Assembly (NCBI GenBank): GCA_036583965.1
Contig: JAZBQD010000017.1
Coordinates: 27,500,385-27,564,384 of the forward strand
Reading direction: 5' to 3'
DNA length: 64,000 nt
Source of the DNA: Prunella strophiata
Taxonomy: Eukaryota > Chordata > Aves > Passeriformes > Prunellidae
Below are positions 3,619-6,424 of the stretch, piece after piece; position 1 is the first letter of the stretch, and every line of letters begins with the position of its first letter. Under the pieces are notes generated by a model, which worked only from the letters and a program-made list of their open reading frames with translations, was not told the DNA's origin and did not search any database. The position numbers and the translations under genes are program-made.

Positions 3619-3816
3619 TGTTGGTTTGCAATACCATACATGTCACATTGTCTTAGCACAGCCTGGTTTTCAGTAGCCAGGGAGGGCCACAGAAGTGCCT
3701 TCTGTGAAAAGCTGCTGGAAGCTTCCACCATGTCCAACAGAGCCAATCCCTGATGGCTGTGAAGATGGACATGCTTCTGAGCCAATTCGAGAGGCTGGTT
3801 ATGCCTCTGTTTTGAC

Positions 3817-3828
3817 ATATTTAAGAAG
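3817..3828 (+). promoter_or_regulatory. TATA-like box of the LTR promoter
   Basis: The sequence 'atatttaagaag' sits about 200 bases into the LTR, where the U3 promoter TATA element is expected. It is the last piece of recognisable U3 before the GC-rich captured block, so transcription starting about 25-30 bases downstream would begin at the edge of that block. Activity today is doubtful given the age of the element. Confidence 0.45.
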
Positions 3829-3839
3829 AAAATCAAAAC

Positions 3840-4115
3840 GGTGCAAGCGCATCCCTGTTTTCCAGGGATGGGGAGATGCTGCTGCTGGCACCAGCCAGGC
3901 ACAGCCTGCGGCATTGCACCACTGTGGCTGCCACTGTCTCGGCACAGCCCGTGGTGGCCCTGGCCTGTCTAGCCACCCCTGGCCTACCATGCCACAGGCA
4001 GAAGGGCAGGGTGGTGGCAGTGGCTTCTCTTTCCCGATGCTCTGCATGGAGAGAGGTGTTACACAGTGCCAGCGCCGCGGTGGCTGCCGCTGCGCACAGG
4101 CAGCAGTGGGGACAC
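3840..4115 (+). other. GC-rich leader of the captured block (5' UTR-like)
   Basis: This stretch is far richer in G and C than the rest of the window and still holds several CpGs, with 'gccagcgccgcggtggctgccgctgcgc' just upstream of the ATG at 4116. Such sequence is typical of the 5' UTR and CpG-island promoter of a vertebrate signalling gene. It sits between the LTR TATA-like box and the kinase-like frame. Long open frames cross it on both strands (a 234-codon minus frame at 3799-4503 among them), which its base composition explains. I take it as part of the same captured host segment. Confidence 0.45.
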
Positions 4116-4391
4116 ATGGCTGATAGCACAAAGGTGGCAGGCAAGTCCCCAGGGTGGAGCCTAGGCCAGATGGACCTCTCAGCTCTGTGGGATTCTGCAG
4201 AAATCTTTGAACTGGTGAAACTTGTTGGCAGTGGTACCTACCAGCAGCAGTTTTTCTTCTGGTCAGAGAAGAGGAGGAAGTTAAGACACGTGAGAGAAAA
4301 AATGGTGACACCAAAGTCAGTGGAAAAAAAAAAAATAGAGGAGGAGAAGGTGCTCCAGGCATCAGAGACGAGATTCCTCTGCAAGCTGTAG
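4116..4391 (+). pseudogene. Captured N-terminal fragment of a MAP4K4/MINK1/TNIK-like kinase, fused to LTR sequence
   Basis: An ATG at 4116 opens a 91-codon frame. Residues 20-42 (4173-4241) read DLSALWDSAEIFELV followed by KLVGSGTY. As I recall the family, misshapen-type STE20 kinases (MAP4K4, MINK1, TNIK) have a near-identical stretch just after a short variable N-terminus, ending in the glycine-rich ATP loop GNGTYG; about 18 of 23 positions agree. The preceding residues (MADSTKVAGKSPGWSLGQM) resemble the family's M-x-SPARSL-type start in position and length. The homology ends abruptly after GTY at 4241. From 4242 the frame continues as translated LTR sequence (QQQFFFWSEKRRK...) to a stop at 4389-4391. 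The catalytic lysine, HRD and DFG motifs are all absent, so no kinase activity is possible. About 280 bases of GC-rich DNA (3840-4115) precede the ATG and look like a decayed 5' UTR. Which of the three paralogues was the donor cannot be told by eye. Confidence 0.65.
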
Positions 4392-5051
4392 TGAGGACTA
4401 TGACAAAACAAATTATCTCTCTGTAATACATAAAGTTCATGTGGAGATCCACTCTCCCCAGCAGTGAGGAGAAGTGCTCACGCTGGAGCAGGTGGATGCT
4501 CAAGAAAGCTGTGAATAGAGAGAGAAGGGCCCCTGCTTCCAGAGTAGAGACAGGGCCCTTGCTTCCAAACTAGAGCAGCCTATCCTTAAAAGACTGAACC
4601 TGGTGGATGAGTGACTCATGGCACAACAGTTTTGGCATGACTGTTTGGTCCCATTCCTGTGGGAGGGACCCCATGGCATAGCAGAGGAAAGACTCCTCTC
4701 CCTGAGTGAACAGAAAAAGGTCTTGAATAACGAGCTGACCAAAACGCCCATGCCCAGTCTCCCTGCCCTGTTGGTGGGAAGAAGGGAGGGGCTGGGGGGA
4801 AAAAAGGTGTTTTAAAGGCCTCTTTTACTTCTCATTATTCTCGTCTGACTCTGTTAATAATATATTTACCTTATACCTTTAAATTTGAACCTTTTTTTTT
4901 GCCTTTAGAGTGTTTTTCTTATAGTACTTATCACAACCCATGACCCCTTTGTTATTTTTTTCCCCTCTCCTCTGTACAACTCTAGCAGAAGAGGGTGAGT
5001 GAATGGCTTTCATAGGTGCCTGGTGTTTGGCCAATATTAAACCACAACACA

Positions 5052-6424
5052 CAATACCTTCAGGTATTTTTTCCTGTAATCCATCTGTTCCCCAGTAACC
5101 CATGCCTCACCTATGGCATAGCCTAGGCCATGAGCCAGGAATTGAATTGTACTGCTTTCCTTTTCTTGTTCTCTAATACTGGACCTTTTTAACACTATCT
5201 TATCAGAGAGAAAGGGCTAGGCACCCTTCTGGAAGCTGCACATGCTACAGGTGTGCAGGTTGTGCTGTGTTTTACTGTCCACTAAAAACTCTACTGACAT
5301 CATCTGGTTTCTCCAGCTTGTGACTTACACCTTCCCTGCCTTTTTGCCTGCTAGTGTTTATGGGCTCTCTTGAGAGAAAATCCTTCCTGAAGAAGAAAGA
5401 GAAGTAATAGATTTTCTGTTCTGAGGAACAACTACTACAAGGTGATGCATGGGCTCACATTGCTTCTACTTCTCTTTGTTTACCTTTCTCATCACCAGCT
5501 GTGTGTCGGTATGTGTCTATTAAAAAACAGGTACAAGATGCAGTTTAATGAGTGTGAAGGGGGGCATGGCTTTGAGGTGGGACACTGGACACAGGGCTGA
5601 CCTTTAAAATCTGTGTGAATTTGATCAATAATTATGTTTAAATTAAAAAAAAAAAAAAAAAAAAAAAAGTTGTATCAGTTTCCCCTTGGCTTTTTGTCTG
5701 AGGTAAAAAAGCTGAATTCTCCAACTGGAGGGTGGTGTGAAGAGCAGGAGCCAGAAGCAAACACCACTTTCTGAACCAAAGGAGTTGTGATCAGCATGGA
5801 GCTTGGCTTAGACTTGTGAGCCAGTCTCTCCTGTGTTTCTGGTGCCAATAACCTAAAAATACTCTATCTTCCAAAGCCACAAGCAACCATGACATGAGCA
5901 CAGCTGCTACATAGAGCAAAAATGGGAGGCACTAATGAGCTGAAAATTTCCACTTTCCAAGCATATGTTTGTAAGCCAACCTGATGCGTGTCTGACTGCA
6001 AAACTTTTCTGTACATTTCACTAGTGATTTCAACAGCATGATGATTGCAGAGAAAGCGAAGCTGATGACAGGAATTAAGTCTGGGACAAAGATATGGATC
6101 TGTTTAAGAGGGAATGCTTGGCAGAACATAAAGGTGTGCAAAGGGAGAGGGTGAAAGATGAGAAGACTTAAGTCTGTAAGAAAACTGTTCCTCCTCTTCC
6201 AAAAGTGCTGGACACTGTGTGGCTATTTATTTTTTCTGACAGCTAACTGTGACCCCACAGACAGACACTGAGCTGTTCATAGCCCTGAAGCAGAGCCCCT
6301 GGAGATCCTCACCCAGCTGTAAAACTGTAGCTATGGAGCAGTTGCCCTGTGAGGAGCACAGCTAATAAAAGCCAGTTTTATGTGGTGCAATGTGCTATAT
6401 GCCCTTTGCCCCTTCCCATACATC
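5052..6424. other. Unclassified intergenic sequence
   Basis: No gene is recognised. It holds an A24 run (5645-5668), which might be the tail of a short retroposed sequence, but the 100 bases before it match nothing I know. The 69-codon minus-strand frame at 5932-6141 has no recognisable feature. Confidence 0.5.
5645..5668 (+). repeat. Poly-A run of 24
   Basis: An uninterrupted run of 24 A. It is either a simple repeat or the tail of an unrecognised retroposed fragment; there is no AATAAA in the usual window upstream and no target-site duplication that I could see. Confidence 0.9.

Follow-up and report, generated by a model that had tools for sequence, protein, structure and literature searches.

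The TNIK segment in a solo LTR

The stretch of DNA analyzed here (the window) comprises 64,000 nucleotides of the 1.05-Gb genome of Prunella strophiata (C82:27500385-27564384). Close to its start lies a dead retroviral promoter, a solo LTR, that carries the 5' end of a host TNIK mRNA: the leader and codons 1 to 38, spliced and in sense orientation (Table 1). An earlier note, made from the sequence alone, had placed the 5' end of a misshapen-type kinase inside an ERV LTR at this position, and this is what we find. The boundaries given there are corrected: the block starts near 3866 (with solid similarity from 3908) and not at 3840, and the LTR resumes at 4248 and not at about 4242.

Table 1. 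Features of the solo LTR, in window coordinates
Feature	Position	Strand	Remarks
Solo LTR	3644..5049 (about)	+	Start estimated from an alignment to other copies; own target duplication not recognisable
TATA-like box of U3, TATTTAAG	3818..3825	+	From the sequence; present in the copies too
Left copy of R-start-like repeat, GCGCATCCCTGTTTTCCAG	3846..3865	+	Edge uncertain by several bases
TNIK 5' leader	3866..4133	+ (sense)	Similarity statistically solid from 3908 onward, less certain over the initial ~40 nt
TNIK codons 1-19, exon 1	4134..4190	+	Met1 is GTG in the window copy
TNIK codons 20-38, part of exon 2	4191..4247	+	Intronless join to exon 1
Right copy of R-start repeat, CAGTTTTTCTTCTGG	4248..4262	+	Single in 12 empty LTRs
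3' junction	4247/4248	+	Identical in 35 aligned copies
Remaining LTR, R/U5 by position	4248..5049	+	Common to the copies; first part also in empty LTRs
91-codon frame	4116..4391	+	TNIK part is 4134-4247 only

The region common to the copies covers about 3653-5049 of the window. Relatives start with TGTGTTGATTTGGCACAG and end with CAAACCACAACA, with changes, and the family thus has TG...CA ends, the window's own 5' end being mutated. Both LTR ends could be placed in 29 of the 45 non-window copies, and 20 of these 29 are flanked by a 5-bp target duplication matching at 4 or 5 of 5 positions, compared with 4.9% of shuffled pairings. The copies look solitary, since no second LTR was found within the window and the flanks share no internal sequence. 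Pairwise comparison of the flanks of filled copies (those with the TNIK block) revealed no common internal ERV sequence and returned only one pair with both flanks shared and two short matches, neither of them at an LTR end; the same comparison among empty LTRs (those without the block) gave one short match and no shared internal sequence. The pair with shared flanks (L007 and L015) lies on two contigs, and its flanks are 98-99.6% identical, as in a segmental duplication or an uncollapsed haplotype.

An open frame spans 3825-4391 and, read from its ATG at 4116, has 91 codons. In a phmmer search against PDB sequences, these match TNIK (E 3.7e-8), MAP4K4 (4.4e-7) and MINK1 (1.8e-5), in agreement with the family named in the earlier note. 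Pfam reported no kinase match in the 91 codons, only two matches far below the cut-off, and a search of a large protein database returned 2 candidates, none at E <= 1. The kinase domain of a GCK-IV gene (TNIK, MINK1 or MAP4K4) is absent, the similarity ending after codon 38. The phmmer alignment runs on beyond this point, but we rejected kinase homology there: many copies have a stop in the part past codon 38, and this sequence also stands in empty LTRs. Codons beyond 4247 are read-through of LTR sequence. The frame is long because the window copy has GTG at the Met1 position (the ATG at 4116 lies six codons upstream) and TGG where other copies have a stop, which falls at codon 43 in 21 of 46 copies; the 91-codon frame is mostly an accident.

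The donor transcript

At the DNA level, window positions 3908-4191 match exon 1 of the host TNIK gene (E 8.9e-30, 123 bits) and positions 4190-4240 match exon 2 (E 4.6e-8, 52.7 bits), while the top score among 200 triplet shuffles of the block was 31 bits. Exon 1 of the host gene has its ATG at C204:21182269 and its last base at C204:21182325, followed by GTGAGG, and exon 2 occupies C204:21208893-21208958. The 26.6-kb intron between them is missing from the LTR block. The exon 1 region is matched by all 46 distinct copies that we assembled (see below) at E <= 0.01, with a best E of 1e-66 and 67-80% identity in all but short hits. Of these exon 1 alignments, 32 end at position 1026-1027 of the fetched host region and none beyond, this position being either the final base of the exon or the G after it, with which exon 2 also begins. 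The copies run directly on into exon 2, where the TNIK part stops at codon 38, 9 nt short of the exon end, and the LTR resumes with CAGTTTTTCTTCTAG. The comparison with donor exon boundaries suggested in the earlier note thus finds exon 1 joined to exon 2. Its inference that a retroelement captured the leader and first coding part of such a kinase, placing it under LTR control, is supported as to the capture, but no kinase was placed under LTR control because only a spliced mRNA 5' end is present.

A tblastn search with the N-termini of the three kinases found a match in 57 of the 60 loci fetched (14 of these being repeats of others), the best kinase being TNIK in 55 and MINK1 in 2; L034, L051 and L058 gave no match. 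In a comparison with TNIK and MAP4K4, the leader resembles the sequence 5' of TNIK, and similarity to MAP4K4 is confined to the surroundings of exon 2, save for one 34-nt hit. Judged by sequence, the donor among the three GCK-IV kinases is TNIK.

Two peculiarities of the leader can be recorded here. In the window (3866-3950) and in other filled copies, the LTR leader includes about 40 nt of GC-rich sequence that today's host TNIK leader lacks; this extra sequence resembles a tandem duplication, and several copies do not have it. In L027 (identical to L043), L056 and L057, other sequence is inserted in the GC-rich leader, and L027 and L057 have it in common at least in part.

The source of the insert, as its codon pattern indicates, was a functional gene, and its copies are free of coding constraint. 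Over the 19 codons of exon 2 in the 46 copies, mismatches to the host number 94/843 at first, 104/846 at second and 256/846 at third codon positions. Six sites differ from the host in more than three quarters of the copies, namely five synonymous third positions and one second position (Gly37). When the five shared third-position sites are set aside, position 3 falls to 53/623, and without the Gly37 site position 2 falls to 69/802. The private changes are thus even over codon positions, indicating that the copies decay without protein constraint. The Met1 ATG is kept in 26 of the 46 copies and the 38 codons are open without an indel in 23, with both true of 13.

Filled and empty copies

As a DNA query, the block gave at least 42 matches (best 40 of 420 candidates scored), the downstream piece 4242-5060 at least 43 (best 40 of 1000) and the upstream piece 3619-3842 at least 40 (best 40 of 891). 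We fetched 60 loci, 30 each by the block and downstream queries, which, counting the window, represent 46 distinct copies; the 45 non-window copies have a mean pairwise identity of 0.80 (983 pairs). All 114 candidates of a protein query with TNIK residues 1-41 were scored, which yielded 113 matches at E <= 10 and 80 at E <= 0.01. Five of the latter are host kinase exons, named by best match: TNIK exons 1 and 2, MAP4K4 exon 2, MINK1 exon 2 and one from another kinase. This leaves about 75 kinase-bearing, LTR-like places at E <= 0.01, window included, their LTR context having been seen for the fetched copies only.

Many LTR copies of this one genome carry the block with the same 3' junction, as the earlier note had anticipated: it is identical in 35 of the 46 copies, those alignable through the block. 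L012 and L029 have small deletions beside the joint. Among the remaining 11 copies, six are unmappable on one side and five have longer spacing, three of which contain other inserted sequence. The 5' junction is less exact across copies than the 3' junction.

Five of the six most similar pairs of copies (L046/L047, L003/L004, L024/L026, L018/L022 and L005/L028) each lie on one contig, 0.19-1.2 Mb apart, where same-contig pairs overall make up only 33 of 1035. Their flanks are not shared, the target duplications of L024 and L026 differ, and identity between these two is near 1 in part of the LTR and near 0.8 in the rest. These similarities look like gene conversion tracts between neighbors.

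The joined flanks of the window LTR, used as a query, gave at least 41 matches (best 40 of 993 candidates scored). Two are the halves of the window copy, and at least 39 are contiguous across the joint and 76-79% identical. We fetched and read 12 of these empty LTRs, which have the form ..TATTTAAGAAGAAAATCAAAACAAAGTGCACACAGTTTTTCTTCTAGTCAGAG.. with changes. None of the 12 contains a TNIK match, and one has a 20-nt MAP4K4 match (E 0.004). Eight have both ends placed, with three perfect and three 4-of-5 target duplications as judged by eye. Two parts of empty LTRs (L086 and L094) contain an approximately 30-nt tandem repeat, GGGGGATGCAGAGATCCACCCACAGCCC-like, in the downstream part.

The sequence at which the LTR resumes occurs once in each of the 12 empty LTRs, about 33 nt after the TATA-like box. 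Filled copies instead read ..GTGCACACACAGTTTTTTCCCCAG, then TNIK, then CAGTTTTTCTTCTAGTCAGAG.., and a version of one sequence therefore stands on each side of TNIK. Similarity between the two flanks averages 15.1 over 40 copies, compared with 11.4 and 11.6 in control windows, and was reached by 0 of 300 in each control, in effect a single comparison because the copies share ancestry. Across the family, the two copies of this R-start-like sequence agree to only about 75%, and the left one, poorly visible in the window copy itself, is clearer elsewhere (GCACAGTTTTTTCCCCAG in other copies). A strict overlap count, limited to 11 copies in which a simple pattern described the left edge, gave a median of 8 nt, with 82% of comparisons above zero and L006 negative. 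Among the 12 empty LTRs, the distance between the start of the TATA-like box and the insertion site could be measured in 9; it is 33 nt in 6 of these and 28, 30 and 38 nt in the others. From general promoter knowledge, we take about 33 nt past such a box to be roughly the expected start of transcription.

We constructed a tree from 374 LTR columns outside the insert for 40 filled copies, window included, and the 12 empty ones (six of the 46 filled copies were dropped for too few mapped columns). Filled and empty LTRs fall on opposite sides of one branch with support of 100/100, and mean identity is 0.833 within the filled group, 0.873 within the empty group and 0.808 between them. One capture suffices, since the split falls on a single branch, and this is so whether the empty group is the pre-capture line or arose by later loss through the direct repeat. 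The latter reading, in which the insert-bearing LTR is ancestral among these copies and the empty ones result from precise loss between the direct repeats, is a possibility we regard as a minority one: the filled copies are the more diverged and the midpoint root falls among them, but midpoint rooting serves only for drawing, and an insert-free LTR must predate the capture in any case.

How the TNIK mRNA may have entered the LTR

We consider it fairly probable that the 5' end of a spliced TNIK mRNA was captured once, at the start of R in an ERV LTR, and that the chimera was then multiplied. By a narrower preference, we favor a route in which a retrovirus extended its own R because copying went past the 5' end of its RNA and onto a cellular mRNA ahead of first-strand transfer. 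Reverse transcriptase would have copied U5 and then R until it reached the viral RNA's 5' end; the start of R is taken as CAGTTTTT, which lies about 33 nt beyond the TATA-like box. At this template end, it would have switched onto TNIK mRNA at codon 38 and copied it to, or near, its 5' end. The lengthened strong-stop DNA would then have moved to the 3' U3-R, landing some 12-15 nt into R and giving a product in the order U3, R-start, TNIK, R-start, U5. Such a product would place TNIK in both progeny LTRs, and with the transfer following TNIK copying the host sequence would have become part of R. A sense-oriented, spliced mRNA 5' end with R-start sequence on both sides would be the expected trace of one faulty strong-stop round. 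If this route applies, as we are somewhat inclined to think, the junctions beside empty LTRs are the fossil of a single round of reverse transcription. What is inferred here is the path taken by the enzyme, where transcription of the virus and of TNIK begins, that TNIK RNA was packaged and that the insert was a passenger. The limited likeness of the two R-start copies, the poor left repeat of the window copy and the additional 40 nt or so in the leader speak against this route.

A less likely route is that LINE machinery or end joining brought a piece of TNIK cDNA into an LTR already in place and that this LTR later became a replicating master. It would imply a target duplication of about 12-15 nt, which the direct repeat on either side also resembles. 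Usual LINE retrocopies show the reverse pattern, the 3' part of an mRNA with poly(A), and the piece here keeps the 5' part, is truncated within exon 2 at codon 38 where LTR sequence follows, has no poly(A), and lies in sense near the expected start site. Classical transduction, in which a provirus within TNIK gives a read-through or spliced chimeric RNA that is packaged and recombined back, is more doubtful still. It would account for the spliced exons and is the usual explanation of host-gene capture by retroviruses in the text consulted of PMC4299795, but integration joins host DNA to the ends of an LTR and not to its middle, and both joints here lie at the R start. No remnant LTR of the same family is visible at TNIK exon 2 in the 501 bases of host sequence fetched there. 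Chance similarity in GC-rich sequence, for which only the modest match of the window copy by itself (71% over 287 nt) would speak, is refuted by the best copy, the spliced joint, the protein matches across loci and the low scores of the shuffles.

Retroelements that have captured host genes usually carry them between their LTRs. Retroviral oncogene transduction likewise joins spliced host sequence to a retrovirus, with the host gene usually between the LTRs and expressed, whereas the TNIK piece lies inside the LTR. It is consequently duplicated at each end of the element and persists in every solo LTR. Crocodilian ERVs that took up KIT-ligand and nectin3 mRNA, the latter replacing env, are described in the sections consulted of PMC4299795 and similarly represent host mRNA in ancient vertebrate ERVs in several copies, but their captured gene is protein coding and lies within the element, in contrast to an unconstrained 5' mRNA piece inside an LTR. 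Plant TRIMs and maize Bs1 also carry exon-only host fragments in multicopy LTR retrotransposons, although in internal regions between the LTRs (PMC4717578, in part). Normal minus-strand strong-stop transfer, in which R pairs with its counterpart in the viral genome (PMC9278108, in part), is the step proposed here, and the detour through a host mRNA is the difference. Songbird surveys likewise report passerine LTR diversity and solo LTRs, and a term search of their main texts found neither TNIK nor kinase (PMC6523648 and PMC11009239). In a literature search that mostly excluded subscription papers and preprints, no paper listed reports, by its title and abstract opening, TNIK or another kinase mRNA inside an avian LTR, and host mRNA within an LTR is described in none of the compared works as far as their consulted text extends.

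In RNA of this subfamily, the TNIK leader would come first, together with a TNIK-headed frame of about 42 codons. A TNIK-like hit in a genome of this kind can turn out to be LTR sequence and calls for caution. Filled and empty sister LTRs let the capture be read almost to the nucleotide, and a specific route, a switch at the RNA 5' end followed by strong-stop transfer, becomes testable from fossils.
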